A DNA stretch of 64,000 nt from positions 124,001-188,000 of the IMG/VR virus record IMGVR_UViG_3300009181_000033. One strand, 5' to 3'. The translations under genes and the position numbers were made by a program. Origin of the DNA: a virus. The notes below the pieces were generated by a model that saw only the letters and a list, made by a program, of their open reading frames with translations, searched no databases and was not told the origin of the DNA. Below are positions 12,775 to 54,626 of this stretch, piece by piece (the first letter of the stretch is position 1; each line of letters opens with the position of its first letter).

Positions 12775-13056
12775 ATGCTAGACGAGCCGAACCTTCTTGA
12801 AAGACATGTTGTTGTTCTAAGCGGCAAAGACACAATGCTGAAGGGCAATTTTTATGAAATCCAGTGTTCTAATGGCAGCATCATTGCTGTGGACAAGAGC
12901 CTTTGGAATTCATGGACGGGTATTAGGTACATGAATGGTGAAGAATACCATGGAACAGTTTTTGTGATGGGCACACAAAAACCATATGGTGGAACGAGAA
13001 TATGCACGTGCAACACATGCCAAAAAGACTGTGATTTTAAACGTCAGTTGAATTAG
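12775..13056 (+). CDS. Hypothetical protein with C-terminal Cys cluster
   Basis: A 93-residue protein if the ATG at 12775 is used; a GTG at 12757 is also possible and neither has a clear binding site. The C-terminus reads ICTCNTCQKDCDF, a C-x-C-x2-C-x3-C cluster that may bind metal. The rest is mixed alpha/beta with no recognised domain. Its stop overlaps the stop region of the convergent minus-strand gene by 4 nt. Function unknown. Confidence 0.55.
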   Translation: MLDEPNLLERHVVVLSGKDTMLKGNFYEIQCSNGSIIAVDKSLWNSWTGIRYMNGEEYHGTVFVMGTQKPYGGTRICTCNTCQKDCDFKRQLN

Positions 13057-13373
13057 CGTTTTATGGGAGGGGTTGGAATAACGTTAAAGTCATTGGTGTA
13101 AATATCGGGTCCCACGTGGGGATTTTCGGAAGTGGGAGGAACAGGACCCCAACAATCTTCTTCGTCATAAAGAGGATCCCTGAGATGACCAGCTATTTCG
13201 TCTGGTTCATCCTTGTCTTTCACGGATATTCTTCCGATTTGTTCTCTGTCAGACATGCTGGGTCCCATAGGATTACGCCCCATGGGACGACTTGGTATTG
13301 TAGTAGCACCACCGGCTTCAATTAAGATCATTTTTCTAATAATTGATCTAAATTCTGATAGCTTCATCGACAT
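13053..13373 (-). CDS. Hypothetical protein with capsid-targeting-like N-terminus
   Basis: A 106-residue protein. Residues 3-18 (MKLSEFRSIIRKMILIEA) form a short amphipathic helix ending in L-I-E-A, a pattern shared with many proteins here and resembling the T4 capsid-targeting sequence. The remainder is polar, Pro- and Asp-rich and probably disordered. GAGG lies about 9 nt before the ATG. It is the last gene of the minus-strand tail-fibre operon, 3 nt after the LamG-like gene. Function unknown; packaging in the head is inferred. Confidence 0.6.
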   Translation of the reverse strand: MSMKLSEFRSIIRKMILIEAGGATTIPSRPMGRNPMGPSMSDREQIGRISVKDKDEPDEIAGHLRDPLYDEEDCWGPVPPTSENPHVGPDIYTNDFNVIPTPPIKR

Positions 13374-13376
13374 GTG

Positions 13377-14429
13377 TCAAAACCTCATTCCATAATAATA
13401 TCTAAAATAATTTTCTAATCTCAACTGTTCTGTTTCATTTGCCCAATAAGGCAACATTAAAAATGACGCAAGATACATTCCATTTGCGCCGGTTCCTGCC
13501 GTTGTATTATTTGAACCAATTGTTATTTGTTGGTTAATGGGAAAAACTATTGTTGGCGATACCGAAAATGTTCCCCATGTGTTAGTAACCAATGTGTGTT
13601 GAAACTTTCCATTAACGTAAAGCTCTTGTTCACTACCCAGGCCCTTTTGTGGCGCTTGATTTGGATCTAACAAACTCATTTTCATTGTAACTAAAATCCA
13701 ATCATTCAATTCCGGCAAATTTGTTGTGTCATATGAACTTGTTCGAATAGCACCACCAACATTTCCATAAACGATTAATCTCAATGTGTCTGTTGGTGTA
13801 ACTGCTTGCGTGTTAAAAATCATTCCGCCAGGCTGAGTTGAACTATCTAAGGTGAATAATGTTTTTGATGCTATTTCTTTTGATTTCAAAACCATCATCA
13901 CAGTAACTGATGGCGTTTTTGTTCCGCTTGGATTAATTGGAGCATATTCAAGCCTTGAATATCCAGAAGTGCCTGCAACCAACCATGTGGATAACCATGG
14001 TGCAACGCTAGAACCACTTGAGCCTCCAAAGTCTAAATACTTGTGAGAGCCCAATAGGCCTGTTTTTATATATGGTCTATTTGTTGCGCTACCATTTGAA
14101 CCAAGAATGACTTTTGTGCCAGAATGTGTTATTGTTGGAAAATTTGTTGCTGAAACCAAGCCTGTTGCAACCCATTTTGTTTCCAAGTCGGCTATGTCAG
14201 GAAGATAAGTGTAAGTGCCATCTTCTAGTGCTGAATCTGCATTCGCATAAATCCACGGTGTTTTAAAGCCTGAGAGTGAGGCAGGGTCCTGAATTTTGCC
14301 CTTATTTGTCGAATCTTCCTTTAACCCTCCCTTAAGCCCAGATTGCAATATTGCATAAATTGTCCCAGATTTGACACCTTGCATCAAACCTTGAGTCAGG
14401 CCTCTTTTTAATCCGCTGGGAGAGGTCAC
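13377..14429 (-). CDS. LamG/concanavalin-like tail protein
   Basis: A 350-residue protein. The N-terminus carries Gly-Leu-Lys-rich repeats (GLKRGLTQGLMQG, GLKGGLK). The rest resembles a laminin-G/concanavalin A-like beta-sandwich often found in phage fibres: VTVMMVLKSK, LNDWILVTMKM, ELYVNGKFQHTL, ITIGSNNTT, and a C-terminal LPYWANETEQLRLENYFRYYYG. The final motif, where a short helix ends with Y/W-G, is typical of such phage lectin-like proteins. Its ATG overlaps the previous gene's stop (ATGA). Likely receptor- or glycan-binding fibre component. Confidence 0.7.
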   Translation of the reverse strand: MTSPSGLKRGLTQGLMQGVKSGTIYAILQSGLKGGLKEDSTNKGKIQDPASLSGFKTPWIYANADSALEDGTYTYLPDIADLETKWVATGLVSATNFPTITHSGTKVILGSNGSATNRPYIKTGLLGSHKYLDFGGSSGSSVAPWLSTWLVAGTSGYSRLEYAPINPSGTKTPSVTVMMVLKSKEIASKTLFTLDSSTQPGGMIFNTQAVTPTDTLRLIVYGNVGGAIRTSSYDTTNLPELNDWILVTMKMSLLDPNQAPQKGLGSEQELYVNGKFQHTLVTNTWGTFSVSPTIVFPINQQITIGSNNTTAGTGANGMYLASFLMLPYWANETEQLRLENYFRYYYGMRF

Positions 14430-14818: not shown

Positions 14819-14832
14819 TTTTCCTCAATGTG

Positions 14833-17800
14833 TTATGTGTTGTTTGCCAAATACAACAACACTGATTGTAATATGACATCTGTATTAGTTAATGGTGTTG
14901 TAGAGCCCGCAATTGAACTACTTATAATGAGGGAACCAGTGATCTGAACACTAGAGTTCTCAATTCTCAAAATATCACTACGAAGTGAATTGTCATCGCC
15001 AGTTCCATTGCCAATTACAAAGAGCGAGAAGTCATTTCCTCTTTGATTGTACTTGCCCAGAACAGTCTGACCACTACCAGAGGCTATCGTATAGATGCCA
15101 CCAGCAAATGAGTAGGTGCCACTGGCAACAGTGTTCTGTCCTTGAGCATGTGAGTAATTGGCACTGCCCGTTGTAAACAATCCTTCAGCATGTGATCCAA
15201 CACCCAAGGCAAGAGTATTTTGACCTTCAGCATGTGATCTGGAACCTGAAGATGTTGTCCCACTTCCCTCAGCATGGGAGTATTGACCTGACGCAGTCGT
15301 GCTGAGCCCTTCTGCATGTGCTCCTTGGTTTGACGCAGTTGTTGTCTGACCTTCAGCATGGGAGCGGTTACCTGATGCTGTTGTTTGGTATCCTTCGGCA
15401 TGGGAGTATTGACCTGATGCTGTACTGCCATTGCCTTCTGCATGGGAATAGATTCCTGATGCTGTTGTTTGGTATCCTTCGGTGTGGGATGCAACACCTG
15501 ATGCTATGCTTCCATTGCCTTCTGCATGGGAGTATTGACCTGATGCTGTACTGCCATTTCCTTCTGCATGGGAATAATCGTTACTTCCTATTGTGTAATA
15601 TCCTTCTGCATGTGATGCATACCCTGATGCAAGTGATCCTTCACCTTCTGCGTGTGCATAATCAAAAGATCCCGTTGTACGTGTACCTTGAGCGTGAGAA
15701 TATGGACCTGAAGCTAGGCTGAAGGCACCTTCTGCGTGGGCTCCGCTGTTGGTCGCACTTGTTAGATAACCTTCAGCATGAGAACCTTGCCCTGATGCTG
15801 TTGTTAAGACACCTTCAGCATGAGCTCCGGTGTTGCTTGCCGAAGAAGATGAACCTTCCGCGTGGGAATATTGACCGGTAGCAATGTTGTTTGAATTGCC
15901 CTGAGCTAGTGAACCCGTTATCTCGAGACGGTCGAAGCCAACAGAAACTCCTCGCTCGATTCTTACAACATCTCTTCTGGATGCATCTGCATCACCAGTG
16001 CCTGTTCCAATCACAAAGAGAGATGTATTATTATTTCTTTTATTATATCCACCAAAAACTGTCTGTCCACTGCCAGAGGCTATCGTATAGATGCCACCAG
16101 CAAATGAGTAGGTGCCACTGGCGACAGTGTTCTGTCCTTGAGCATGTGAGTAATCGGCACTGCCTGTTGCAAACAATCCTTCAGCATGTGATCCAACACC
16201 CAAGGCAAGAGTATTTTCACCTTCTGCATGTGAACCATTTCCTAGCACAGTTGTTGAAATACCTTCAGCATGAGAATAATTGCTCTGAACAGTGGACTCA
16301 TATCCTTGGGAAAAAGAACCCAATCCCAATGTTTTGCTCGAAGGCCTTCCTACAGACAGAGAGCCACTGATTACAACGTCACCACCAAACAAAGATTTTC
16401 TATTGCCAGCATCAGATCCAGACAATGATCCACTAACATAGAAAAACACATCTGTTCCTTTTTGAATAGGAGAATCAATGCTTTCACTCCCTCTTATGGC
16501 AACTGAGCCAGTCGCATAAATAGAACCATTGGTTGTGCTAGAAAAATACTGGGAAGCAGCTGGTGCAGCGATTGTAACAGAACCGTTAGAACCCGAAGTA
16601 ATTGTTATATTCGTCCCAGCAACAAGATATGAAGTGCCGTCAGAGAGGTGAGTTAAAGAGCCCGATAATCCCTGCGGAAATTTTGTTTGCCCAGATAAAG
16701 TGTTCGTTCCTAAGACATTTCCAACATTTAATGCTGTAGATGCCCCACCTGCAAAATTAACTGTCGTTGCATTTGCGTTAATTACGTTAAACGTTGTAGA
16801 AGTTGTGGTAATCGCATTGTTATTTACCGCCAAATCACCTGCTAACGTCAAATCCTGTATCGACTTGGTGTTCTTCCAATTGTCTGTCGCAGAACTGTAT
16901 ACTAAAAGATCACCATTCGCAAGAGTTGAAAGAGCAACATCACCCAACTGACTTAGTTTGACAGGTATTGTTCCTTGTCCAGATGAACTCACACCACCAA
17001 CCAACCTAAATAAACCTGCTTGCTTTATTGATGATTTTGCCGCGTCTGTTAAAGACGTACAATCCTGGGCCACGACAATATGTGCACAAAGAATACCATT
17101 AATTGCCGTGTTAGGTGCCTCAGTAAATGCCTCAGTACCAACACCATTTTCAGCATCAATAAGTGTTTGATAAGACTTATTTCCGTAATATACTATAAAC
17201 GCATTTGTTGGTGAGTTGGGAATCCAAAACACCCTTTGAATTGAAAATTCATTGTTAGGAACATTTACAAGCGTCCCATTTCCATTAACATATTTCGTCG
17301 GATCTAGAACCGTATAACCGGCATTTGCAACACCGGTATTAACAACCGGCGTAGAACCCGACATGTAATATCGATAAATCTTTGAAACCGTTATTGGGTT
17401 TGATTCTATGACCGTAGAGGGGTGATTTGGATTAATGGTGTAATTGGCACCCGCCTTATAAGCACTACCAGCAGTTTTGGTAATTGATAATGTTGAACCA
17501 GACGCCTCGATGGTGTGTCCTGATATCTTTAAGGGTCCAAAGGCACGTATAAAATCATCATTTTGTTGATCTAAACCATAAGAAATTTGAGGTGAATTAA
17601 AAACACCATTAGAAACATTTCCTGAAAGGTGCAAAACAACCCCTAAATTAATGGCAGTATCCCACTGGGTTATATCTAAAGATCCCCAAGGCGTAGGTTG
17701 TTGTATGATTTGACCCGTATTATCTATGCCAACATACGTAATCTTTGCAGACGCGGAATACAACAGTGATATGTTAGATGTTGTCGGCCATTGTACGTAT

Positions 17801-19941
17801 TTGATTGTTGGGTACGGTGCAGAACTAGTTGATGCATTCATTGAAACAATAATGCCTTCACCACCCAACACACCAAAAGTAGTTCCTCCCAGAGACGTAG
17901 ACAAGATTCCTCCGTGGAGAAGGCCTGTGCTTAACGTACTTTCCAACCAACGAAGTCGAGTTGTGTTAGTAAAATCAGTTCCCGGCGCATACTGGGTAAA
18001 GTACATGTCATTGGTGGAACCCGAAGTATAAATGTAAGATGCACTTTGGTTCGTTGGAATTCTAAGAGATCCTACTGGTTTCATCTGAAAATAGTCAGAT
18101 ACACCAAATGCGCCTGATATGAAAGTATCACCACCAAATAATATTGACGGTTGATCTGCCCCTAATGTTGAAAGTGCACCGGAAACATAAAAAGATGTAT
18201 TAGGATTAATATCAAAAGGTGAATCAATTCCTGTTTTGTTTCCTATGAATGCAGCAGATCCTGTAGTGAATATCGAGCCGGCTGTTGTGCTCGTGAAAAA
18301 AGAATCGCCTGTAATCCCTTGATATCCTTGGACTCCTGTTATTCCTTGAGCTCCCTGAACTCCTTGGGTACCTTGAAAACCTTGATTTCCTTGGTTTCCT
18401 TGGGTGCCCTGGCTGCCTTGATTACCTTGAAAACCTTGAAAACCTTGAGAACCTTGTATGCCTTGGTCTCCTTGGGCTCCTTGGGTGCCCTGAGAACCGA
18501 TCATCCCCTGGAAGCCTTGGGTGCCTTGGAAGCCTTGAGAACCCTGTGAGCCTTGGAAGCCTTGAGAGCCCTGTGAGCCTTGGTCACCCTGTAAACCTTG
18601 GTCGCCTTGGAAGCCTTGGTCACCCTGTAAACCTTGGTCGCCTTGGAAGCCTTGGTCACCCTGTGAACCTTGGTCGCCTTGGTTACCTTGGAAGCCTTGG
18701 TCACCCTGTGAACCTTGATCGCCTTGGAAGCCTTGTCCTTGGAAGCCTTGAGAACCCTGTGAACCTTGGTCACCTTGGAAGCCTTGGTCACCTTGGAAGC
18801 CTTGTCCTTGGAAGCCTTGGTCACCCTGTGAACCTTGATCACCTTGGAAGCCTTGGTCGCCTTGGAAGCCTTGAGAACCTTGGAAGCCTTGAGAACCTTG
18901 GTCACCTTGTGAACCTTGGAAGCCTTGAGAGCCTTGGTCACCTTGTGAACCTTGGAAGCCTTGTCCTTGGAAGCCTTGGTCACCTTGTGAACCTTGGAAG
19001 CCTTGGTCGCCTTGTGAACCTTGGAAGCCTTGTCCTTGGAAGCCTTGGTCACCTTGTGAGCCTTGATCGCCTTGGAAGCCTTGGTCACCTTGTGAGCCTT
19101 GATCGCCTTGGAAGCCTTGAGAACCCTGTGAACCTTGGTCACCTTGGAAGCCTTGGTCACCTTGGAAACCTTGGAAGCCTTGGTCGCCCTGTGAACCTTG
19201 GAAGCCTTGAGAGCCCTGTGAGCCTTGGAAGCCTTGGAAGCCTTGAGAGCCTTGGTCACCTTGGAAGCCTTGAGAACCCTGGTCGCCCTGTGAACCTTGG
19301 TCGCCTTGGTCACCCTTCAGGCCCTGGGTCCCCTGGAATCCCTGGTTTCCTTGTGATCCTACTTCACCTTGAGGCCCTTGGGCTCCTTGATGTCCCTGGA
19401 ACCCTTGGTCTCCCTTCGAGCCTTGGAAGCCTTGGTCACCCTTGAAACCCTGAAATCCTTGGTCTCCCTTTAGGCCCTGATAGCCTTGGTCACCCTTCAA
19501 TCCCTGATAACCCTGGTGACCCTGGTTACCTTGATGGCCTTGGAGACCCTGGAGACCTTGGAGACCTTGGAGACCTTGGTAACCTTGTGTTCCTTGAACA
19601 CCTTGATAGCCTTGTGCACCTTGATAGCCTGCACCTTGGGCACCTTGATACCCTTGTTCTCCTTGAAAACCTTGTGTGCCTTGTTGACCCTGTGGCCCAA
19701 AATCACCAATATCACCTTGATATCCTTGGTAGCCTTGATATCCTTGGTAGCCTTGATATCCTTGGTAACCTTGATATCCTTGGTAACCTTGGGCTCCTTG
19801 GGCTCCTTGGGCTCCTTGGGCTCCTTGGGCTCCTTGGGCCCCTTGGGCTCCTGAACCGCCGCCATGTCCGCTAGCTCTAATTACGATTGAGCCATTTCCT
19901 TGTCCCGAAAATGAAACGGTCATGGTGTCTCCTGTAAACAA
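14833..19941 (-). CDS. Giant collagen-like/YadA-head tail fibre
   Basis: A 1702-residue protein. After about 30 residues comes a collagen-like tract of about 170 Gly-X-Gln triplets (residues about 31-545; [15 protein letters not shown]). Then follow two copies of a beta-rich module (starting [13 protein letters not shown] and [13 protein letters not shown]) and about 24 YadA-head/Hep_Hag repeats of 14 residues (SHAEGxxTxASGxY) in two blocks, the last 50 residues being distinct. Collagen tracts and YadA heads both form trimers, so a long trimeric fibre is expected. AGGAGA lies about 4 nt before the ATG. It heads a four-gene minus-strand operon. Internal DNA repeats make it prone to length change and to assembly error. 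Confidence 0.85.
15071..15221 (-). repeat. 151-bp direct repeat, copy 1
   Basis: Near-identical (about 5 mismatches) to 16067-16217, inside the same fibre gene. It encodes three to four YadA-head repeats and the following turn. Confidence 0.85.
16067..16217 (-). repeat. 151-bp direct repeat, copy 2
   Basis: Second copy of the segment at 15071-15221, about 1 kb away in the same orientation. Recombination between the two would delete or duplicate about 996 bp, exactly 332 codons, and so keep the frame. Confidence 0.85.
18320..19850 (-). repeat. Collagen-like triplet-repeat DNA (G-x-Q)n
   Basis: About 1.5 kb of 9-nt units, read on the plus strand as CCTTGGAAG, CCTTGGTCA and variants, encoding Gly-X-Gln on the minus strand. 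Four two-residue breaks (GFQ-GQ-GFQ) occur near 18731, 18800, 18960 and 19029. Apparent ORFs on the other frames here are repeat shadows. Confidence 0.9.
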
Positions 19942-20174: not shown

Positions 20175-20433
20175 TTTGCTGTTTTCTCCACATTATTCTT
20201 CCGCGGCTCGTATCGTAAGGTGAAACTTCTATTGCGACAAAATCACCTGGCAAAATATGGATATGATTCTGTCTTAGTTTTCCTGAAAGTGTTGTCAAAA
20301 CAACATTCCCGCCATCTATTCTTACTTTGAATAATGTTCCAGGTAGTGCCTCTTCAACAACACCATGCAGTTCCATTCTATCATCTCTTTCAAGAATTTG
20401 CTTTTGAACACTATTCTTCTTCTTCTTCGACAT
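20155..20433 (-). CDS. infA: Translation initiation factor IF-1
   Basis: A 92-residue protein whose residues about 20-90 match the S1/OB-fold of bacterial IF-1: MELHGVVEEALPGTLFKV, ISGK-like LSGKLRQNHIHILPGDFV and the family end VEVSPYDxSxGRI (here IEVSPYDTSRGRIMWR). IF-1 binds the 30S A site during initiation. It has an additional lysine-rich N-terminal extension of about 17 residues compared with the 72-residue E. coli protein. The ATG at 20433 is chosen because GAAGGAAA precedes it; a GTG at 20469 is alternative. A phage-encoded IF-1 suggests control of host translation. It overlaps the genes on both sides. Confidence 0.9.
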   Translation of the reverse strand: MSKKKKNSVQKQILERDDRMELHGVVEEALPGTLFKVRIDGGNVVLTTLSGKLRQNHIHILPGDFVAIEVSPYDTSRGRIMWRKQQNERVVD

Positions 20434-29490: not shown

Positions 29491-29503
29491 ACAGGAGTGC
29501 AAA

Positions 29504-30823: not shown

Positions 30824-30859
30824 AAACCAAATATATATTTTATAATATCAAGAGGAACA

Positions 30860-36545: not shown

Positions 36546-36920
36546 TCACATGTCTAAGGCATTTTCCTCATCCTTTAGAATTCTTGCCTCAAGTTCCTTT
36601 AGCGACTTAGAAAACCTCTTTGTCAAAGCCTTCTTCGCTATTCTTTTTGCACTTTCAGCATCTCCTCGGGTCATTTGCAATATTTTTTCAAATTTCAAAT
36701 TTACTATTCTTTTTGCAGAATTCAATATATCCGATGGAATTTCAAAACCATAAGAAAATTCTATTTCTTCAGCCCACTCATCAACTATTGCATCAGAAGG
36801 AGCCTCAGATCCAAAAAAGGATTTGATTTTTTCCCACCAGCTCTTTTGGCTCTTCTCCTGGGGTTATAGTTCGCTAGCCAAATATTTTGATATAAATTCT
36901 CTTAAAATTTTTTCATTCAT
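36546..36920 (-). pseudogene. Small gene interrupted by in-frame TAA
   Basis: The start codon (36918-36920) overlaps the upstream gene's stop as TAATG and has GAGGG 7 nt upstream, so initiation looks real. The frame reads MNEKILREFISKYLASEL, then TAA (36864-36866), then stays open for about 105 codons in the same frame (PQEKSQKSWWEKIKSFFG ... AKRIAKKALTKRFSKSL ...) to TGA at 36546. The N-terminus matches the recurrent capsid-targeting-like helix. No ATG, GTG or TTG follows the TAA early enough to restart the second part with its conserved-looking start. Either a nonsense mutation, a sequencing error, readthrough, or a genuine 18-residue peptide. Confidence 0.65.
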
Positions 36921-41412: not shown

Positions 41413-42324
41413 ATGCACAAAAAAATTTCGAGTCAAAATCTAAGAAAATTGATCAGAGAAATCATTGAGGAAGAAACGGCAATTCCCGGTGATGCCCCTT
41501 CTGAAAACCAAGTTCATCTTTTTGACTTTGATGATACACTTGCTGTAACACAGGATCCCACAGCTGTAATGCTCTACAATGATGAAATCCCTGCACATAA
41601 ATCGGCAGACGAAGTCATAAATTGGCTGACACAATTTAAAATATCTGATGATGATCTAATAAACCCAGGCATTGCGCAAATACCGCAGAGGGGTGGACAC
41701 GCTGCATATATTAATTCGGCAGCTTTGGCTAAAATACAGACAGCCTATAATAGAAGCCAACAAAAGGTCAGCGGAATAAGTGAACCCAAACAAGGTGAAT
41801 CTATATTAATGGACTTTACACCATGTGCATCAACAAACCTCGATGCAGCCAAACCAATAGATTCAACTATTGAAAAAATGAAGAGAATGCAAGATGTAGG
41901 AGCAACAACAGGTGTAGTGACAGCAAGAAAAGAAAAAGGAAGTGGAATCGATCTTCATGGACACAAGGTTGATGCCACCAACAAAGAAGACATAATTAAA
42001 TTTCTTGCACAAAATGGCGTAAGCCCCAGTGCTGGCGTCATGGGTGTCTCTGGACAAAATAAAGGAAATTTCATTGCGAAATATTTTGCCGGCGACAAGA
42101 ACACAAAGGAAATACACTTTTACGATGATATGCCTAAAAACACTTCAGAAGTTGAACAAGCGCTAGCAGAGAAAACTCCTTCGGAATTATTCATATATGG
42201 ACCAGGTGAATTCGACAAAGGAGAAGCAAATCCAAATGTTCCTTCAAAGAGTCATCCTGCTAAAAAGCAAAAGTTCGAAAATTTTGATTTATCGAGATGG
42301 AATAAATTGGCCGGACTAAAATGA
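41413..42324 (+). CDS. HAD-superfamily hydrolase with capsid-targeting-like N-terminus
   Basis: A 303-residue protein. Residues 5-20 (ISSQNLRKLIREIIEEE) form the recurrent amphipathic helix. The HAD motif I is HLFDFDDTLAVT (about residues 35-46), motif II is probably TGVVTARKEK, and motif IV is IHFYDDMPKN. This suggests a phosphatase or nucleotidase. A similar design, helix plus HAD domain, may reflect head packaging. A terminator follows immediately after the stop. Confidence 0.78.
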   Translation: MHKKISSQNLRKLIREIIEEETAIPGDAPSENQVHLFDFDDTLAVTQDPTAVMLYNDEIPAHKSADEVINWLTQFKISDDDLINPGIAQIPQRGGHAAYINSAALAKIQTAYNRSQQKVSGISEPKQGESILMDFTPCASTNLDAAKPIDSTIEKMKRMQDVGATTGVVTARKEKGSGIDLHGHKVDATNKEDIIKFLAQNGVSPSAGVMGVSGQNKGNFIAKYFAGDKNTKEIHFYDDMPKNTSEVEQALAEKTPSELFIYGPGEFDKGEANPNVPSKSHPAKKQKFENFDLSRWNKLAGLK

Positions 42325-43476: not shown

Positions 43477-44556
43477 TCAAAGCGCCTTTATTTTTTGTAT
43501 TGTCGACCTGTAGTCTTTAACATATTGAGCATCTTCAGGGACGCCTTGCTTCAAGACTTCCTGCACTTTGTCTTCGAGTGATTTTATGTAAAATTGCTTC
43601 ATAGAAGCACGAATAGTTTTCATAATGCTCTTTTCTGCTTCTTGTTTTTCTTTGCCTTCAAGCTCAGAAAGCTTCTTAATTTCAGGTATTTCCTTCTTGT
43701 TTTTCTTCATCAAATTCTGAAGATCCTGGGGAGATTTTGCATTCTTTAAAACGCCTTCTGCTTGATTGTAAATTTGATCCAAGCTTTTTCTATAAATTTC
43801 CGTGGCGGTCTTCTTCATTTTTTCAGCCTCGGGGCTTGAATAGACTTTCGTCAAAAATTTTGGATTCTTCATCAATTTTTGTGGCGTAAATCCACCTTTT
43901 TGATTTTTTTCATTGGAGTCATCCTCTGTGATTTGTTGAGATTCTCCCCACAAATCACTTGGGTTACGACTCTTGCCACCTGATTCCCGAGAAGTCTTTT
44001 TAGGAGCCTTGGCACCTTTGTTGCCTAACATCCACCTTCCTGTTTTTTGCAACTTTTCTTTTGTGGCGTCATATAATTGGTCAGAAAATCCACCGGTTGT
44101 TGCACTCAAAAGACTCTTTGCGACTTTGGGTGCAGCCTTTGCCGTAAAGGCACCCATGACAAGTGCTGGTGAAGCCATAAAGGCTAGCGCCACAGCGTCT
44201 CCCTTAAACGCCTCATCATTTCTTTTATAAACTTCTGAATAATCATTTCTTATCTTGTTGATCTCTTCTTTTTCTTCATCAAAAACGCCGGCATAATCGG
44301 CCCTCAACATGGGATTGAGGGTCGTCACAATTGTTCCCCAAACAACTTTTACTAGAGTTTTGGCACGCGTTGTAAGCTCCTTCGTTTTACCTATAGCAGT
44401 TTGCACTGCATCAACAAATGGAGATCCAAATACCTTAAAAAGATCCCCTTGATAAGAAGAACCCATCATTCCTGCTGTATCCATTGGGCCATAGTCATCT
44501 TCTTTTAAGATGTGTTGAACATATTCCTTCAACAATATTTCGCCAGATTTTTTCAT
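43477..44556 (-). CDS. Putative internal virion protein
   Basis: A 359-residue, Lys/Ala-rich protein. It begins with the recurrent helix (LLKEYVQHILKEDDYG, [L]-x-E at 17-19), has a hydrophobic Ala/Met/Gly segment (about 120-150, VALAFMASPALVMGAFTA) and a long basic helical C-terminus. These features, with the capsid-targeting-like start, resemble internal head proteins or ejection proteins. No catalytic motif. Divergent from the nucleotidyltransferase gene across 37 nt. Confidence 0.58.
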   Translation of the reverse strand: MKKSGEILLKEYVQHILKEDDYGPMDTAGMMGSSYQGDLFKVFGSPFVDAVQTAIGKTKELTTRAKTLVKVVWGTIVTTLNPMLRADYAGVFDEEKEEINKIRNDYSEVYKRNDEAFKGDAVALAFMASPALVMGAFTAKAAPKVAKSLLSATTGGFSDQLYDATKEKLQKTGRWMLGNKGAKAPKKTSRESGGKSRNPSDLWGESQQITEDDSNEKNQKGGFTPQKLMKNPKFLTKVYSSPEAEKMKKTATEIYRKSLDQIYNQAEGVLKNAKSPQDLQNLMKKNKKEIPEIKKLSELEGKEKQEAEKSIMKTIRASMKQFYIKSLEDKVQEVLKQGVPEDAQYVKDYRSTIQKIKAL

Positions 44557-44593: not shown

Positions 44594-45190
44594 ATGTCAA
44601 CAACAATAGCTCTGCTTCCAGGAAGTTTTAAACCTTATCACGCCGGACACGATGGACTAGTAAGACTCGCAGCATCAGAATGTGACGAAGTACATCTCTT
44701 TATATCAACATCCGATAGAAGTCGCAAAGGGGAAATGACCATATATGGAACAGACATGCAAAGAATATGGCTTGATTTTATAGAGCCAACGTTACCCGAA
44801 AATGTTGTTGTCGAATACGGTGGAGCTCCTGTTCAAAAAGTGTATGCAGAGCTAGAAGAGGCCGAAGCTGCCGCAAGCGAAGACACTTATGTAATCTACT
44901 CAGACGAAGAAGACATACTGAAATACACAGATGCAGCTCTCACCAAAGTCGCACCAACACTGTTCGAAAATGGACAAATAGAAAGAAGGCCTGTCTCAAG
45001 AACAGAAACAGTCCCAGTCAGCGGTACCAAAATGAGAGAATACCTGGCGACAGGCGACTCAAAAAACTTCGCCAAATTCTTGTCGCCAAGTATTCGTCAA
45101 TACTCTCAGCAAATAATAGACATTCTAACTCGGAAGCAAATAGGAGAAAGTCTATTAAAAAGATACATCAAGGAATTCATCCAACTCTAA
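44594..45190 (+). CDS. NMN adenylyltransferase-like cytidylyltransferase-fold protein
   Basis: A 198-residue protein of the HxGH nucleotidyltransferase family. Motifs: GSFKPYHAGHDGLV (HxGH, about residues 10-23) and VSGTKMREYL (the ISSTxIR-like second site, about 142-150). Related phage proteins act in NAD or phospholipid-precursor synthesis; NMN adenylyltransferase is the best guess. The last 15 residues (GESLLKRYIKEFIQL) repeat the helix otherwise found at N-termini. Overlaps the convergent gene by 14 nt. Confidence 0.72.
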   Translation: MSTTIALLPGSFKPYHAGHDGLVRLAASECDEVHLFISTSDRSRKGEMTIYGTDMQRIWLDFIEPTLPENVVVEYGGAPVQKVYAELEEAEAAASEDTYVIYSDEEDILKYTDAALTKVAPTLFENGQIERRPVSRTETVPVSGTKMREYLATGDSKNFAKFLSPSIRQYSQQIIDILTRKQIGESLLKRYIKEFIQL

Positions 45191-46340
45191 TATTGACTTG
45201 GTTTGGAACAATTTTTCCTTGAGTGTTTCTGACTTCGACAACATATCTGCCCTTTGTGGTCAAAATTCTACAAGAAATTTGTTTCGTGGTTCCTGGATAA
45301 GATATGTCTATTCTCTTCACCACACCAACTAATTCCAGGGCATGTTCTTGATTTTCAATTTTTTCTACATGCCATTTACCGCCACCCATGTCTCTAGCGT
45401 ACCAATATCCGTAACCATAACCAGAAGCTAAATATCTCTGGACTTTTTCGTAATCCTGTGTGCCAGATGGGGCAACGTCCTTGCTCATCTCAGGGTCTTT
45501 GCTTGAGAAACGAGAAGCAGGAGTCTTAGTCACTGAGGATGGTGTACCACGCAAGTAATTAGTTAGACCTCTGGCTGCCAAAGTTTTGTTGATGCCTAGA
45601 GCTCTTAAAAAATCGTCAGTTGGATGTGAACCTGACTTAACGATAGGTTCTCCGGTTTTTTTATCTTCATCCTGAACAAATCCACCTACATAACCTGTAT
45701 TGGCAAAAGTATTACCTGAGGGATCCTTCAGGGAGATAAAAACCTTTTTACCAGATTCAGCATTTCCAGCCGAGTCTGGTCTTTTTAAAATAAGTGTTAG
45801 GTCGGAAATTATTGGACCAACATTCGGCACTTCAGGGAGCAAAGGCCTTGCATTGTTCTTGCCCCCTGTTTGTTCTGAATCCTTAATGTTATTCGGATTG
45901 ATTCCGATCGCCTTTAAAAGGCTAGCTATTCTGGGAGAGATCTTTCCTGATTTCAGATCCTGTGCTTCACTTGCAACCTCATCTTCGAAAACCTGTCCTT
46001 TGTTTCTGCCGCTGGTGAATAGAACATTGTATTGTTTTCCTCCATGGTTCACGATATATGTCGTAAATCTTCCACTCAAGGAACCTGGATCACCTTTGGG
46101 AATGGAATCCAATAGCTTAATTCTTGCCTTCTTCAAAATCTTGGCAATCTCTTCACCAGAAAAAAGGTGTGACGTAGAAGGAGCTAGTCTTATCTCTTTG
46201 TCAGAAGCGACCTTTACCTGAAGGCCTTCAACACCTGAGTCTGCTGCGGCTGAAACTATCAAATTAGCAACCAACACAGTATCAGGTGATTTCGCCTCCT
46301 TTATGAAGTTCCTGATATATTGCTTCAATAGATCATTCAT
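45177..46340 (-). CDS. Hypothetical protein with capsid-targeting-like N-terminus
   Basis: A 387-residue protein starting MNDLLKQYIRNFIKEAKSP, the clearest match here to the T4 capsid-targeting pattern (x-F-I-x-E-A). The remainder is mixed alpha/beta with a Gly/Tyr-rich stretch (ASGYGYGYWYARDMGGG) and a C-terminal beta domain. No known family. Coupled to the ligase-like gene by a 4-nt overlap, so the two may work together. Confidence 0.6.
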   Translation of the reverse strand: MNDLLKQYIRNFIKEAKSPDTVLVANLIVSAAADSGVEGLQVKVASDKEIRLAPSTSHLFSGEEIAKILKKARIKLLDSIPKGDPGSLSGRFTTYIVNHGGKQYNVLFTSGRNKGQVFEDEVASEAQDLKSGKISPRIASLLKAIGINPNNIKDSEQTGGKNNARPLLPEVPNVGPIISDLTLILKRPDSAGNAESGKKVFISLKDPSGNTFANTGYVGGFVQDEDKKTGEPIVKSGSHPTDDFLRALGINKTLAARGLTNYLRGTPSSVTKTPASRFSSKDPEMSKDVAPSGTQDYEKVQRYLASGYGYGYWYARDMGGGKWHVEKIENQEHALELVGVVKRIDISYPGTTKQISCRILTTKGRYVVEVRNTQGKIVPNQVNIRVG

Positions 46341-47599: not shown

Positions 47600-47868
47600 T
47601 TTTGTTTCTCGTTAATCTGTTGTCTATTTTTTGCTGACTGCAGCTCTCTCTTTAAGTGATTTACCAAATGCTTATAATGAGATCTTTTTTCGGTCCCACG
47701 CGCACATTTATCACGCCAATACTCTGCATCACCGATTCTTGATTGTAAATCATCTATATGGTCTGTAGAACCCCAATCAGTCGTTCTGTCTTTAGACAAA
47801 GAAACCTGACGAACCTGTCTTTCAACCAACAGCTTGATGTAATTTTTAATTAGATTTATGCCTTCCAT
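47596..47868 (-). CDS. Hypothetical protein with recurrent N-terminal helix
   Basis: A 90-residue basic protein starting MEGINLIKNYIKLLVERQ, the shared N-terminal helix with L-V-E. The rest is charged and helical (YKHLVNHLKRELQSAKNRQQ). The ATG at 47868 is chosen because the motif begins there; a longer frame from 47886 overlaps the upstream gene. It overlaps the ligase-like gene by 4 nt. Function unknown. Confidence 0.58.
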   Translation of the reverse strand: MEGINLIKNYIKLLVERQVRQVSLSKDRTTDWGSTDHIDDLQSRIGDAEYWRDKCARGTEKRSHYKHLVNHLKRELQSAKNRQQINEKQK

Positions 47869-48064
47869 CTTCTTGCTCCAAAGCATTTTTCATAGAACCA
47901 ACAAGAAATTTCTTTATGTGACTCTCGGTGATCTCGCCAGAAGAAGACAGGGAGAAAGCATTTTTTACTTGTTCAAGAAATTCTTGTGACATGGAAAGTT
48001 CAACTTCTTCACCAGAAGGAAGATTGAATTTCATGCTATTTGCTATTTTCATATTGACACTCAT
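47846..48064 (-). CDS. Hypothetical protein
   Basis: A 72-residue protein: short strand (MKFNLPSGEEVELSMSQEF), then helices (LEQVKNAFSL, IKKFLVGSMKNALEQED). Start overlaps the upstream stop by ATGA. Its 3' end overlaps the next gene's start by 23 nt. No recognised domain; small acidic phage protein. Confidence 0.55.
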   Translation of the reverse strand: MSVNMKIANSMKFNLPSGEEVELSMSQEFLEQVKNAFSLSSSGEITESHIKKFLVGSMKNALEQEDGRHKSN

Positions 48065-48645
48065 TTTTTAGCCTTAATGGGAACAGGTCCTGAACTATCT
48101 TCTAGAGATGTCTTTTTTGTATCGCCTTGTTTTGGCGACGGTGTCTTTACAACAACAGGTTTAATGGTGACTTTTGTTTTCTCTTCGCCTCTTTTCATTT
48201 CAATATTGGCAGGATTTGAATCAGGTGAAACAGCTGATTTGGCAGGTATTTCGCCTGTTACAACCTGCGATATTCCTTTCAAGAAGGCTAACAAGGCAAC
48301 CCTCTCTGCTTTTGTCAAACTATTGACATATTCTTCAAGCTTTGAAGATATGTCTTCATCCTTGAAAGAACGACCAGCTCTTATGGCATTGAGTCTATCA
48401 ATGACATCAGAAGCGGTAATTTCCCCCTTCTTCATTTTCTCACTGGCGTCATCTAGGGTTTTTGAAGACGCATTTGTTTTTTCTGCAGAATTTTCAGCGT
48501 CATCATCTTCCTCAGTCAAAGACTCCTGGCGTTCTTTTTCGGCAACTGCATTTTGATACAACGCTTGCTTTACGCTTTCTTTTACAACTTTATCAATAAT
48601 AGTCGATAACTGCAAGCCTGTTTGAATATTCATTTGTCTTTCCAT
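48061..48645 (-). CDS. Acidic low-complexity virion-type protein
   Basis: A 194-residue protein. The first 35 residues form an amphipathic helix (LQLSTIIDKVVKESVKQAL). Then follows an acidic Glu/Asp/Ser linker (EEDDDAENSAEK), a helical domain (about 65-130, DVIDRLNAIRAGR, SKLEEYVNSLTKAERVALLAF) and a Lys/Pro-rich tail. The layout resembles scaffolding or internal head proteins. ATGs at 48645 and 48633 and a TTG at 48660 are possible; GGAAAG favours 48633, so the start is uncertain. Confidence 0.55.
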   Translation of the reverse strand: MERQMNIQTGLQLSTIIDKVVKESVKQALYQNAVAEKERQESLTEEDDDAENSAEKTNASSKTLDDASEKMKKGEITASDVIDRLNAIRAGRSFKDEDISSKLEEYVNSLTKAERVALLAFLKGISQVVTGEIPAKSAVSPDSNPANIEMKRGEEKTKVTIKPVVVKTPSPKQGDTKKTSLEDSSGPVPIKAKK

Positions 48646-48667
48646 TAAAACACCATTCAATATATAT

Positions 48668-49069
48668 TCACTTTTTAATTAAATCCATGCCTAACATGCA
48701 CAACTTGTTGTGCATATCAATGCCAAATAATTTGGGCGATGTTAAAAAGTAAGGACCAATTATTCGATTTATTTTTTCTGATAGGTGCAACTGGATGCCG
48801 TTGCACAATAAATCTGCTCCGGATGTTATCAAAATGAATATTTCATAAGCTTCTTCAAGTTTAAGCTTAACGTCCAATTTAATTGATTGTTTTTCTACCT
48901 GTATTCCATCGAGAGTACCAATTAATGGCTCTAGGCCATTAATTTCAATTACAGTAATCACTACAGAATCCATTGAAGTCAAAGTTTGTGTAACTTCATC
49001 TTCAAGCTCTGGTATCATCCCCTTTAATGAATCGCTCATTAACAGCCTATTTGTCGTTGAATCAATCAT
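48668..49069 (-). CDS. Hypothetical protein
   Basis: A 133-residue mixed alpha/beta protein (TSMDSVVITVIEINGLEPLIG, KLKLEEAYEIFILITSGADLL). Slightly acidic, without Cys-rich or membrane features. Its ATG overlaps the stop of the pterin dehydratase-like gene by 4 nt. Function unknown; co-expressed with neighbours. Confidence 0.58.
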   Translation of the reverse strand: MIDSTTNRLLMSDSLKGMIPELEDEVTQTLTSMDSVVITVIEINGLEPLIGTLDGIQVEKQSIKLDVKLKLEEAYEIFILITSGADLLCNGIQLHLSEKINRIIGPYFLTSPKLFGIDMHNKLCMLGMDLIKK

Positions 49070-49443
49070 GCTGATACACTGTACACTACATCCTTATACA
49101 GTGTATCAGCATGCTTCGCATATTCCTTATCTAATTCGGTTATCTGGTCTACATCCTTCGTGTAAACATCCAACACCACTTCATTCTCATTAATCGTTAT
49201 GGTGGCATTGTGCATCGTCTCATCTTCGTATTTTAAGAGAGATCTCACAAAATCATTTCTTAAATCTTGATTAAGAAATTGAAATTTCTTTCTGAGGCGG
49301 CGGGGCGACTCTATTTTTTCCCATTTGTTGACGGCCATAATGGGAACATCTTTTTCACGCGGCAAGACTGGCAGTGCCCCAAAATTCATTGGCCTCCTTG
49401 CTTTGTCGATAAACTCTTCGTGTAGACGAGAAAGCTGCTTCAT
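49066..49443 (-). CDS. Pterin-4a-carbinolamine dehydratase-like protein
   Basis: A 125-residue protein. Residues about 40-120 resemble the PCD fold: KKFQFLNQDLRNDFVRSLL, YEDETMHNATITINENEVV, and ITELDKEYAKHADTLY. The catalytic region of the family is usually [E/D]-x3-H-H-P; here only one His (ETMHN) remains, so dehydratase activity is doubtful. Similar PCD-fold proteins are common in T4-like aquatic phages. Coupled to the nitrilase gene by ATGA overlap. Confidence 0.65.
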   Translation of the reverse strand: MKQLSRLHEEFIDKARRPMNFGALPVLPREKDVPIMAVNKWEKIESPRRLRKKFQFLNQDLRNDFVRSLLKYEDETMHNATITINENEVVLDVYTKDVDQITELDKEYAKHADTLYKDVVYSVSA

Positions 49444-50204
49444 AAAAGAACGTAACCTCCCACTACAGCTGCCTCAGTAAATGATGAGCCATTCGTCCAA
49501 ACGTTCCTGTTTCTATCTACGATGCAAGAGCCGCCTTTGAACTCCAGATCTCTCTCCTTGCCAACCCTATTCGAGACAACGACGTTCGCGTCTGTTTCTT
49601 CTGCTAGTTCAACCCATGATGAATCAGGATAGCCATAATCACTGCCCCAATTCGTCAATAGGGCTATTGTGTCGACAGAGCCATTTTTATAAAACCTCTG
49701 TTCATTCTTATAGAATTTATAACTATCTCTATAGTTGTTCATGACATCCCTACAAATCAACACACCTGTTCTTCCTGCTTTGGTGATTATAACAGGGTGC
49801 ATTGCCTCTGATGAAGTCGCCCATAAATTATCGGATCCCCACAGGTTGTGCTTCTGGCAATTCTCAACAAGGCCACTTGGTCCAACAATGGCAGCTGAAT
49901 TAAACAATTGATCTCCACGTTGTTCAACATAGCCAAAGACTATGTGGGTGTTAAATTTCTTTGCTATAGGGGCAAAAACTTCGGTTTGATAACCGTTTTT
50001 CTCCTGTGCACAAGAAGCTGCTTCTCTTTTGTTTTCCAAGACATAACCACTGATGCATAGTTCTGGAAGAACAACCAAACATGCGCCTTTAGCTGCAGCT
50101 TCGAAAGCCATTTGTTGTGCTGTTTTTAAATTTGCATATACGTCCAGGATCTTTGGCTGAAACTGGACTGCTGCAACGATAGGCGCATTTTGCATTTCAA
50201 TCAC
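49440..50204 (-). CDS. Carbon-nitrogen hydrolase (nitrilase superfamily)
   Basis: A 254-residue amidase-type protein with the Glu-Lys-Cys triad: E in VLPELCISGYV (about residue 46), K in ENCQKHNLWG (about 115) and C in GVLICRDVMNNY (about 150). Full family length suggests an intact enzyme hydrolysing an amide, such as in NAD or pyrimidine metabolism. The NMN adenylyltransferase-like gene about 5 kb away could be related. Overlaps the upstream gene by 8 nt. Substrate not predictable. Confidence 0.83.
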   Translation of the reverse strand: MIEMQNAPIVAAVQFQPKILDVYANLKTAQQMAFEAAAKGACLVVLPELCISGYVLENKREAASCAQEKNGYQTEVFAPIAKKFNTHIVFGYVEQRGDQLFNSAAIVGPSGLVENCQKHNLWGSDNLWATSSEAMHPVIITKAGRTGVLICRDVMNNYRDSYKFYKNEQRFYKNGSVDTIALLTNWGSDYGYPDSSWVELAEETDANVVVSNRVGKERDLEFKGGSCIVDRNRNVWTNGSSFTEAAVVGGYVLL

Positions 50205-52772: not shown

Positions 52773-53085
52773 TATTAGTCTTCTCTGCTTCCTCGAGAAG
52801 ACTATACAACGTATTGCTATCGAGTTCACCCATCATTAGGCCTTTTATCTGCTTCTTTCTATTGGCCTTCGCGTCTTCTAGCATGGCTTTAATTCTCTTA
52901 GAAACTAATCGTTCGAAAGTTCTTTCTGCCTTCATGCTATCCTCGGCCATTGTTTCAGCATAGTCAGAAAAAAGTTCTTGCATTGTAAGATTGTGTTTAA
53001 ACATTTTTTCCCTAAGAGTTGCGTGAACCTCTTTGGGTATTTTTATATGCACACATTTTCTACTTTGAAACAAATCACTTCTCAA
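52759..53085 (-). CDS. Ribbon-helix-helix-like small protein
   Basis: A 108-residue protein. The start RKCVHIKIPKEVHATLREKMFKHNLTMQELF resembles an Arc/MetJ-type ribbon-helix-helix (short basic strand, then two helices), which binds DNA as a dimer. The C-terminal half is helical and charged. It overlaps the genes on both sides by a few nt. It could be a phage transcriptional regulator; no operator was identified. Confidence 0.58.
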   Translation of the reverse strand: MRSDLFQSRKCVHIKIPKEVHATLREKMFKHNLTMQELFSDYAETMAEDSMKAERTFERLVSKRIKAMLEDAKANRKKQIKGLMMGELDSNTLYSLLEEAEKTNNEKW

Positions 53086-53627
53086 GCGCTTCCCCCCATA
53101 GGACCTGCTGCCCCTGCTTTGGGAGCAATATTCTCATCTTCCATCTCAAAATTTGACTTACCGATCTCAATGTCATAAGAATCAAGCAAGTCAGCATTAA
53201 AAGATTCAACAACATCTTCTTCGTAATTTTTGGCTATATAATTACTGGCTCTTCTCAAGATTGTATTTCTCACCTCAAGAAGGGAATCGTAATTTTCTAC
53301 AAGCCTCATGACGTCAGAAACAAAAGAACGAATATCAATATCTTCAGCAGTTAATTTCTCAGGCTCTTCGTCCAGGACTTCGTCTTCATCATCAGCAGAT
53401 TCTTCGTCATCTTCAGCTTCGAACAACCTCCTGACTAGAGAACGAAAGTCACTCCCTTCTGTCTTGACATTCTTGGCCTCAGATTCATATGTGCTAAAAT
53501 ACTTGTCTATCTGGGCATCCAGAGAGTCTTCACCAGGCTCCATTTCTTCTTCCTTCGCTTCCCTTAAAAAGGAAGCAACTACACTACGAAGATAAAATTT
53601 TTTGCTTTTTTTTGAGTGAGTCATCAC
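53082..53627 (-). CDS. Acidic protein with repeated protease-site-like helices
   Basis: A 181-residue, strongly acidic protein. It has an N-terminal helix FYLRSVVASFLREAKEEE, a second copy DFRSLVRRLFEAEDDEE (about 61-77), and a third weaker DIRSFVSDVMRLVEN (about 97-111). Each ends in L-x-E, usually followed by Ala. The C-terminal 50 residues form a separate domain with Gly-rich tail. The layout suggests a scaffold or internal head protein processed at several sites. ATGA coupling to the SOD-like gene. Confidence 0.58.
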   Translation of the reverse strand: MMTHSKKSKKFYLRSVVASFLREAKEEEMEPGEDSLDAQIDKYFSTYESEAKNVKTEGSDFRSLVRRLFEAEDDEESADDEDEVLDEEPEKLTAEDIDIRSFVSDVMRLVENYDSLLEVRNTILRRASNYIAKNYEEDVVESFNADLLDSYDIEIGKSNFEMEDENIAPKAGAAGPMGGSA

Positions 53628-54358
53628 TTCACCACCTGAGCTATTTGTTCTGCCTTCTTAAATCTTTCTTCAATGGTTTCCCAATTAAATTCTCTCATTT
53701 GGGCAATAAGATAACTCTTTTTATCGTTGAGATAATCTCTATAGTAAGAATGCTCCCACATGTCGACAACAACTAATGGATAAAAGCCAACAGGGACATC
53801 ACCGCTATGATGACTAATCATAAAGTTGACATATTTTCTAAGGAACATGTGGTATCCTAAAACTGCCCAACCACTTCCAGCAGAAAGCGCACAGGCCATA
53901 AAATCACGCTGCCAATCATCAAAAGTACCAAAATCACGTTGTAGCCTAAGGTATGCGGTTGAATCCATTACAATTTCGCTATTTGGATCAAAACAATTAG
54001 CGAAATAAAGTTCATGTAACCAAGCAGCATTTAAGTTATAAACTTCATCAAGCTTAAGAGATCTATATGACGAATGTCTGGAATTGGTGTCAGATCTCTC
54101 TGCAGTATCAAGCTCAGAAGAAACCTTATTGAGACTCTCAACATATCCTTTGTAAAGATCAACGTGCGCACTCTTAGTCTTTTGTGAAACAAACTCAGAG
54201 ACTTGCTTGAATTGCTTTGGCTCATGAACGTATGATTCATTCAAATCAATTTTAGGCAAATTGGCAGTTACCTTTGTCATGTGAACATTCAATGTTTTTT
54301 TGATTATACCTTCAACGTCAACGTTGGCAAAGAGATTTTTATTATCAGTCAAGCTCAT
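53624..54358 (-). CDS. Fe/Mn superoxide dismutase-like protein
   Basis: A 244-residue protein. The C-terminal part matches Fe/Mn-SOD: LNAAWLHELYFANC, FGTFDDWQRDFMACALSAGSG, WAVLGYH and the metal motif VVDMWEHSYYRDYL. The N-terminal helical-hairpin region is present but its first His ligand is uncertain, so activity may be altered. GGAGG lies 6 nt before the ATG at 54358, which decides the start. SOD-like proteins occur in several aquatic phages and may be structural. The neighbour is the acidic head-like protein. Confidence 0.82.
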   Translation of the reverse strand: MSLTDNKNLFANVDVEGIIKKTLNVHMTKVTANLPKIDLNESYVHEPKQFKQVSEFVSQKTKSAHVDLYKGYVESLNKVSSELDTAERSDTNSRHSSYRSLKLDEVYNLNAAWLHELYFANCFDPNSEIVMDSTAYLRLQRDFGTFDDWQRDFMACALSAGSGWAVLGYHMFLRKYVNFMISHHSGDVPVGFYPLVVVDMWEHSYYRDYLNDKKSYLIAQMREFNWETIEERFKKAEQIAQVVK

Positions 54359-54626
54359 ATTCGTCCTCCAGGGTGTCTTTATCAACCAAAAAATCGGTGC
54401 CCTCAGGCGTCTTCAATATAGCATCGCGAGGACCAACTGAAACAATCGTATAGAGAAATTGAGTCTTCTTGTGTCTCAACTTCAAATCCTTATCCAAGAC
54501 CTGTTCTTCTTTTCCATCGACCTTGGTTTTAAAAATGGCATCAACGCTCTCAGACAATGTTTTGAGTTTTGCATCCCACTCTTCTCTCATTATCCGGATG
54601 ATTTCAGATTCAGTAAGTTTTTTCAT
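54345..54626 (-). CDS. Hypothetical small protein
   Basis: A 93-residue protein. The N-terminal helix (LTESEIIRIMREEWDAKL) resembles the recurrent motif loosely. The C-terminal 50 residues form a likely SH3-like barrel (KKTQFLYTIVSVGPRDAIL, TDFLVDKDTLEDEY). Its ATG overlaps the dCMP deaminase stop (ATGA). Function unknown. Confidence 0.6.
   Translation of the reverse strand: MKKLTESEIIRIMREEWDAKLKTLSESVDAIFKTKVDGKEEQVLDKDLKLRHKKTQFLYTIVSVGPRDAILKTPEGTDFLVDKDTLEDEYELD

Follow-up and report, generated by a model that had tools for sequence, protein, structure and literature searches.

How far does a helix shared by unrelated proteins of a large phage extend through its genome, and what does it do for the proteins that carry it? 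The window analysed here, a stretch of 64,000 nucleotides, is part of the 298-kb record of an uncultured, very large virus related to phage T4, and that record encodes a T4-type head module. A first-pass annotation of the window had described an amphipathic helix ending in [L/I]-x-E on about eleven unrelated proteins and had likened it to the capsid-targeting sequence of T4. The recurrent tag was confirmed and is more widespread than claimed: some thirty otherwise unrelated proteins per genome appear, from their sequences, to carry it. The analysis supports the capsid-targeting interpretation at the level of sequence, and we consider it likely, with a probability of roughly 0.83, that the tag belongs to a greatly expanded T4-like capsid-targeting system.

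The tag takes the form [L]xx[I/F/Y][I/V]xE and is shared by several proteins of one phage whose bodies are unrelated outside it. A motif search over the rest of the genome, which the first-pass annotation had proposed, found it genome-wide and N-terminal. With a position weight matrix (PWM) built from six relatives only, this genome being held out of training, 17 of its 369 N-termini scored at least 9 and 10 scored at least 11, where interior windows lead one to expect 0.27 and 0.07, respectively. In a de novo EM search the tag ranked first among the N-terminal motifs of this genome and its relatives, exceeding interior controls, and this tag was not recovered from T4 and cyanophage S-PM2. The motif is not equally frequent in metabolic genes: of 21 control genes annotated as housekeeping or structural, none reached a tag-level score; these controls were picked by annotation rather than at random and include some virion proteins. 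Two consensus forms, QLRRIIREE and LLKxYIxxFIKEA, were distinguished, and class A tags (MK[LI]TxxQLRRIIREE) are closely alike within one genome. Tagged members beyond the window lie at 47-87, 112-118, 192-214 and 246-267 kb of the genome, and head-operon core proteins (genome 255566, 255867 and 260946) are tagged in many relatives too. Short helical patterns are degenerate, which limits single tag calls, and the calls at genome 272647, 291008 and 212234 are probably false positives. A tblastn search of the tag against phage records gave no match, the 20-residue query being too short, and a literature search for tag strings found no paper.

Table 1. Tagged proteins of the window, with the tags of their orthologs, and the head protease of the genome.
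Feature	Coordinates	Strand	Tag or site position	Tag and matches	Ortholog tags
Tagged protein, 106 aa	13053..13373	-		MSMKLSEFRSIIRKMILIEA then GG; predicted cut L-I-E then A	G002 FILRHYIRCILQEA; G001 MKRFIREAVILEVG
Tagged protein, 67 aa	20411..20614	-		LSLLKIMIREEIQRNLR	G002_169968 MKITMLALRKMIREEMERNLR (weak, E 2e-5)
Tag (six-frame translation)	36870..36905	-	36870..36905	LREFISKYLASE	
Tagged protein, 138 aa	37924..38340	+		IFKAIVQEG	G002 MKITPGILKEIIEEA (69% identical)
HAD-type phosphatase-like protein, 303 aa	41413..42324	+	41440..41472	LRKLIREIIEEE (N-terminal), includes LRKLIREIIEE; PF11019 8e-5, phrog_415 4e-7	
Uncharacterised tagged protein, 359 aa	43477..44556	-	44500..44535	ILLKEYVQHILKE then DD	G001 VLLKEFVQEVLQEDD; G003 ILKESIRQIIKEE
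NMN-adenylyltransferase-like nucleotidyltransferase	44594..45190	+	45152..45187	LLKRYIKEFIQL (C-terminal); TIGR00125 5.5e-7, phrog_3462	G002 LLRKYVKTILENKI (C-terminal)
Uncharacterised tagged protein, 387 aa	45177..46340	-	46293..46331	LLKQYIRNFIKE then A; PWM 11.1; phrog_8438 9.5e-13	
Tagged protein, 90 aa	47596..47868	-		LIKNYIKLLVE then R	LKEFVELVVE; LVEFVKLLVE
Probable further member, 190 aa	48061..48633	-		LSTIIDKVVKE then S	LKDFLNSVIKES; LDDYLKKIINES; INRFLLICEA
Probable further member, 125 aa	49066..49443	-		LSRLHEEFIDKA (compare T4 TYQEFIAEA)	LNKEFIERS; LNEQFIQRA
Tagged protein, 341 aa	50197..51222	-		ALRQFIKEML	
Tagged protein, 180 aa	53082..53624	-		FYLRSVVASFLRE then A	
Likely Fe/Mn superoxide dismutase, probable further member	53624..54358	-	54236..54244	L39-N-E41 then S; PF02777 8e-21	
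Tagged protein, 93 aa	54345..54626	-		KLTESEIIRIMREE; PWM 11.0	in 5 relatives
gp21-like S77 protease	genome 256305-256916			PF03420 6e-25	

Within the window (Table 1), the helices quoted in the first-pass annotation as LLKQYIRNFIKEA, LRKLIREIIEE and LLKEYVQHILKE were located in the genes at 45177, 41413 and 43477, respectively, and the C-terminal copy on the nucleotidyltransferase at 44594 was found as described. The assignment to 36546 required one correction: a TAA stop at 36864-36866 separates the tag from the downstream body (36546-), so that the tagged gene is interrupted. The protein at 54345, listed as a loose member, is by its profile score a strong one, and the list had missed the superoxide dismutase at 53624 and the proteins at 48061 and 49066, all three probable members, plus many members outside the window. 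The L/I-x-E ending is not universal, 37924 having V-x-E and 54345 M-x-E. For the HAD protein, AlphaFold2 run on the single sequence gave a mean pLDDT of 36.

The listed genes at 13053, 37924, 43477, 47596, 50197, 53082 and 54345 have orthologs in one to six relatives that start with tag-like helices. The gene at 20411 does so weakly, the tag core being the part most similar to its ortholog, and the C-terminal tag of 44594 is retained in one ortholog and absent from the remaining ones. No orthologs of 41413 and 45177 were found in the genomes searched; further searching by sequence turned up a single match, weak and partial, for 45177 and no relatives of 43477. Orthologs differ in tag sequence while their bodies remain alignable, a modular exchange of tags. 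The DNA up- and downstream of the tags is identical only at the random level (0.28) and different codons underlie 184 of the 321 residue pairs that are identical, indicating that the peptide itself is conserved. These observations bear on the proposal that the motif has no present function and is left over from common descent or from the copying of gene 5' ends, in favour of which stands the close resemblance of class A tags within one genome. Spread of class A tags by copying was rejected on the unrelated flanks and the different codons, and tags of orthologs that cannot be aligned still keep the pattern, indicating selection; we regard a remnant as highly improbable.

A capsid-targeting system of the T4 type would need a matching protease, and the gp21-like gene that the first-pass annotation had called for is present. 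A profile search of the genome identified an S77 protease (88 bits against a curated cut-off of 27) within the head operon, with the portal gene on one side and the scaffold and capsid genes on the other; a search of 15 relatives and controls showed that each of them has a gp21-like protease as well. The same operon holds a gp23-like capsid protein (PF07068, 1e-76), a gp20-type portal (PF07230, 2e-74) and, adjoining the capsid gene, an acidic 689-residue protein that matched no family and is assigned as the scaffold purely by position and composition. A terminase is also encoded in the genome. The putative scaffold shares a C-terminal tail, RWxxLAGI, with two other proteins of the genome; a scaffold-like tail, RWNKLAGLK (42295-42321), ends the HAD protein at 41413.

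Sites of the gp21 type are present after the tags and selectively conserved, and their cleavage is predicted from this pattern. Of the 90 non-redundant tags, 68 have an [LIVM]xE that ends six residues past the core L, a figure partly built into the profile. Directly after the tag, at positions mostly outside the trained profile, [LI]xE occurs in 43 of the 90 against 14.9 +- 3.4 in shuffles, an excess to which helix periodicity could contribute, as amphipathic helices favour such spacing; deeper in the proteins there is no enrichment (12 against 11.9). The raw count of conserved [LI]xE[AGS] over all families, 20 against 4-16 for control patterns, shows no clear enrichment. With a variable middle residue, a requirement adopted after the raw count was known, six such sites lie within families that are tagged or belong to the head (5,300 residues; a set defined partly through the tag itself) and one elsewhere (42,269 residues), and control patterns show no bias toward these families. 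The signal is specific only under this requirement, which removes invariant fold segments. The sole outlying site is that of the superoxide dismutase, in the same block: its variable 41-residue N-terminal extension ends at a site whose L39 and E41 are invariant in six orthologs, and the predicted cut falls where the canonical enzyme begins. In 53082, a second site, LFE then A, occupies residues 67-70, and E22, E69 and A70 are invariant among eight orthologs with differing tags. The protein at 50197 bears an internal tag-like segment, IRKTIRKLLSE then A, that is a conserved gp21-type site (E125 invariant in an alignment with five orthologs). In 37924, ILREAEYKG stands immediately ahead of the phrog_7595 domain (residues 45-124), with EVILEAEYKG at the matching position of its ortholog. 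Additionally, the relatives listed share the capsid-protein junction Q(V/L)(L/I)(K/R)E then S/A/V, apart from one departure from Q(V/L) in which L-x-E is retained, and L/I-x-E then G/S lies right ahead of the scaffold tail in most of about 80 copies. Actual cleavage may be confined to a subset of the sites predicted from the pattern.

We propose that the short amphipathic helix, usually N-terminal and once C-terminal, would dock its protein on the prohead core during head building, and that the gp21-like protease would cut after L/I-x-E at the helix end or at a further site a few residues downstream, freeing the cargo inside the head, from which it would probably be ejected with the DNA into the next cell. 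The carriers would comprise head-operon core proteins, many small uncharacterised proteins, and enzymes or enzyme-like proteins. The tags are also amphipathic and basic, as in membrane-targeting helices, and many tag-bearing genes lie far from the head operon and lack a known function, as might be expected if the helix sent its carriers to the inner membrane, to the tail or baseplate, or to a phage compartment within the cell, with L/I-x-E a by-product of the helix. Such a destination, which we judge unlikely, leaves unexplained the conserved cut sites after variable tags, the tags on head-operon core proteins and the match to the T4 signal. Somewhat less likely still is that tagged proteins enter the prohead core for an assembly role and are then broken down or expelled, as happens to most gp22 and gp67 fragments in T4, without delivery to the next host. 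The core-like carriers of the head operon and the internal L/I-x-E then A sites of 50197 and 53082 fit this account; a scaffold role would make no sense for HAD- and NMNAT-like enzymes or for a superoxide dismutase predicted to be cut where the enzyme starts. Assembly and delivered classes may coexist, as in T4.

A bolder form of the capsid-targeting reading, which we hold tentatively and at slightly less than even odds, is that virion loading throughout this group of giant phages of the T4 superfamily follows a general address code: an exchangeable helix tag at either end of dozens of proteins and, as another signal, a scaffold tail, RWxxLAGI(V)K, that a few cargo proteins have taken over. 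The superoxide dismutase, HAD phosphatase-like and NMN-adenylyltransferase-like enzymes loaded in this way would act in the new host before phage gene expression. Proteins injected beside phage DNA usually come to light singly, through proteomics. Should the tag prove to be a capsid-targeting signal, the proteins injected by a large giant-phage group known almost only from metagenomes would be directly readable from sequence. They would include many small uncharacterised proteins, which suggest themselves for roles in early host takeover and anti-defence, and the tags would offer new, possibly orthogonal, loading signals for T4-like protein delivery particles.

In T4, the capsid-targeting sequence is carried by IPI, IPII, IPIII and Alt and processed by gp21. 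The present system resembles it in the short N-terminal hydrophobic-x-x-hydrophobic-[IVL]-x-E register, the unrelated cargo bodies, the gp21-type protease in the genome and the cut pattern L/I-x-E then A, here predicted from sequence. The likeness noted earlier extends to the active positions, the tag aligning in register at 4 and 7, hydrophobic positions that act in T4 targeting, and at 8 and 10, the I/L and E positions that act in processing (PMC9026906). The T4 pattern itself recovers T4 IPII, IPIII, gp24 and gp2. The consensus forms differ from T4 TYQEFIAEA, the carriers number about thirty rather than a handful and include metabolic enzymes, a second L/I-x-E often follows further on, and one copy is C-terminal. 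In the giant phages SPN3US, phiKZ and 201phi2-1, cleavage after x-x-E by the head protease likewise releases inner head proteins, and two SPN3US paralogs have an identical 15-residue N-terminus (PMC5694885); these phages differ in head lineage, in several propeptides of more than 100 residues and in cuts after A-x-E or S/A-x-E. The N-terminal 30 residues of P1 DarB suffice for entry of a reporter into the head (PMC9024508), which is again N-terminal capsid targeting, in another phage lineage and capsid type and shown on one very large antirestriction protein. A literature search for a virion proteome of this phage group or of the cultured Flavobacterium phage vB_FspM_immuto found none. The latter is a distant relative (capsid protein 43% identical) whose tags are mostly LKKFLVEN or LIKEA. 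Its N-termini are nevertheless enriched in the generic pattern (16 against 3.1 expected), many pattern-bearing genes, including a 5'-nucleotidase and an annotated cobalamin adenosyltransferase, cluster beside its head module, and its scaffold ends in SRWQKLAGIIK, like the tail described here.

The tag, a short amphipathic helix found mostly at the N-termini of otherwise unrelated proteins, is a real motif. The window occupies bases 124001-188000 of a 297,894-bp record in which 387 genes were called, and a T4-type head module lies at genome 246-263 kb (see table). IMG/VR is rich in relatives, with 160 loci matching the terminase or the capsid protein at 56-85% identity, and every named phage fell below 60%. 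Six large relatives (G001-G006) were examined in full, as were five control phages: T4, S-PM2, Mel-JY01, Cr30 and the Flavobacterium phage immuto, a cultured distant relative. A de novo EM run on the first 32 residues of proteins, with interior segments as controls, ranked the tag first among N-terminal motifs, above the interior controls, in the source genome and G002-G004, and did not recover it from the N-termini of T4, S-PM2, Mel-JY01 or Cr30. When the source genome was searched with a profile trained on the six relatives only, the tag proved N-terminal and genome-wide: 17 of 369 N-termini scored at least 9 and 10 scored at least 11, where interior windows predict 0.27 and 0.07. Counting profile hits and ortholog-called members, we estimate about 30 carriers per genome; window 48061 and 49066 are probably also carriers, and weak hits at genome 272647, 291008 and 212234 are probably false. 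Of 21 assigned metabolic and structural control genes, including GroEL, PrkA, SpoVR, ThyA, PolIII alpha, terminase and tail fibres, none scored as tagged.

The tag strings reported by the first-pass annotation are present at their places with a single fault. At gene 36546 the string exists (window 36870-36905) but is not continuous with the body: an in-frame TAA at 36864-36866 splits the tagged gene (36546-36920, minus strand) between the two. This split gene may reflect a pseudogene, a sequencing error or recoding.

Tag carriers, head-module genes and N-terminal variants of one tagged family
Feature	Position	Remark
Head-operon carriers	genome 255566, 255867, 260946, 246636, 247616
Carrier beyond head operon	genome 266838	true start upstream, taking in SESSLRRMIREE
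Window carriers (starts)	window 13053, 20411, 36546, 37924, 41413, 43477, 44594, 45177, 47596, 50197, 53082, 54345	first-pass list
Carriers elsewhere	genome 47-87 kb	small proteins without known function
Carriers elsewhere	genome 112, 118, 192, 213-214 kb
S77 prohead protease	genome 256305-256916	PF03420, 6e-25
gp23-type capsid protein	genome 250439-252310	1e-76
gp20-type portal	genome 257774-260902	intein-interrupted
Large terminase	genome 246-263 kb	in head module
Acidic scaffold-like protein	genome 252353-254422	assigned by position and composition only
53082 N-terminus, source genome	window 53082	FYLRSVVASFLREA
53082 ortholog, G002		LKKIIREQVKLLVEG
53082 ortholog, G003		LKTLIKEVRLLLVEE
53082 ortholog, G005		MFRDFINEVEG
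53082 ortholog, G006		MVLKDMVLKEA
53082 ortholog, L297		LARLLREA
53082 ortholog, L298		FRHLVASLLSEA

Two spellings of the tag occur, MK[LI]TxxQLRRIIREE(V), mainly outside the window, and an LLKxYIxxFIKEA-like form frequent within it. Ten tags of the former share 51% of their residues, the 60 bases on each side are 28% identical, which is chance level, and different codons are used at 184 of 321 identical residue pairs. The tag is an exchangeable module at the protein level. The best example of exchange is window 53082, whose body can be aligned in eight orthologs from DS[LV]DxQ[IV]D onward with E22 invariant, while the N-termini differ. Orthologs of 13053, 37924, 43477 and 47596 likewise carry different tags. 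The two spellings thus swap on one protein. The C-terminal tag of the nucleotidyltransferase at 44594 is retained at the C-terminus in G002 (LLRKYVKTILENKI) and is missing from other orthologs.

The protease gp21 of T4 cleaves behind L/I-x-E; within the T4 signal, targeting involves residues 4 and 7, and processing residues 8 and 10 (PMC9026906). The proposed likeness to this signal holds, in that the tag core L-x-x-I-I-x-E is in register with Y4-x-x-F7-I8-x-E10, and the gp21-like protease sought is encoded in the head module. In LR756508.1, a 484-kb uncultured phage, the prohead protease (156507-158102) matches as two separated pieces in one 576-aa frame, as if an intein or other insert split it; the portal intein of the source genome, outside the window, includes an HNH endonuclease domain. 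The generic pattern occurs near N-termini 22 times in the source genome (5.0 expected), 23 in G002 (2.9), 16 in immuto (3.1) and 10 in T4 (3.2), where ipII, ipIII, gp24 and gp2 are among the matches. Directly behind the tag, in a region that the trained profile for the most part does not cover, [LI]xE follows 43 of 90 tags versus 14.9 ± 3.4 in shuffles; farther into the proteins it is at chance level (12 versus 11.9). The capsid-protein junction Q(V/L)(L/I)(K/R)E↓S/A/V (arrow, predicted cut) is kept in relatives, one copy departing upstream of L-x-E. Among the 131 families that the group conserves, 22 are tagged or head families (5,300 residues) and contain 6 aligned [LI]xE[AGS] sites with a variable middle residue, versus 1 such site in the 109 others (42,269 residues), and control patterns with E replaced or the order reversed showed no such bias. 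The variability criterion was introduced after a looser count gave no information and the family set is partly tag-defined, so this result is supportive of the protease link rather than blind.

The lone site outside the 22 families belongs to an Fe/Mn superoxide dismutase (window 53624-54358; PF02777, 8e-21; PDB 1coj, 2e-34). Conservation is 0.40 over its first 30 residues versus 0.76 for the remainder, and the divergent N-terminal stretch contains tag-like segments in relatives (LRQFVKDA, LDNILKDA, LAGIIKES), followed by L39-x-E41↓[AS]YV, in which L and E do not vary. Because residue 52 aligns with position 11 in the curated model of the family, residue 42 corresponds to the normal enzyme start, and the predicted cut would free a standard superoxide dismutase. 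In the source genome the extension is a poor tag (PWM -0.8), so the argument here draws on the cut site and the relatives.

The scaffold-like protein ends in RWxxLAGI(I/V)K in nearly all relatives, including immuto, and L/I-x-E↓G/S directly precedes this tail in most of about 80 scaffolds seen. The same tail terminates the HAD protein 41413 and genome 246636, both of which also bear the N-terminal tag, and a 414-aa protein of G005. Because the scaffold C-terminus binds coat protein in several phages, the shared tail could, as a lead only, offer a second route into the prohead.

Several other genes are of note. Consecutive DUF444, SpoVR and PrkA kinase genes (window 28315-32794, plus strand; 4e-105, 2e-112, 4e-137) form a bacterial stress/sporulation triad, here phage-borne, with best matches in G002 in a single stretch (159779-163054). 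A collagen-like repeat protein of about 1,700 aa (window 14833-19923, minus strand) and GPTGPTG-type proteins (2194-2730 and 6550-7101) are probably fibres. The tagged block at window 44594-50195 includes NMN-adenylyltransferase-like and NAD-synthetase-type carbon-nitrogen hydrolase genes, and that of immuto likewise has NAD synthetase and NadR-like genes. At genome 66-79 kb, outside the window, the products of many small genes begin MKPGDLV, MKPGDMV or similar.

Most likely, the tag helix would dock onto the prohead core and be trimmed there by the protease, and the trimmed cargo would remain with the DNA and then be ejected. Its presence in virions is predicted from sequence, and ejection is suggested by analogy with the T4 IPs and Alt. 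The open-access literature yielded no paper describing these tags. The docking and trimming half of the proposed mechanism tracks T4 closely; new here are the scale, the distinct consensus, the exchange of spellings, the C-terminal copy, the enzymes among the carriers and the sharing of the scaffold tail.
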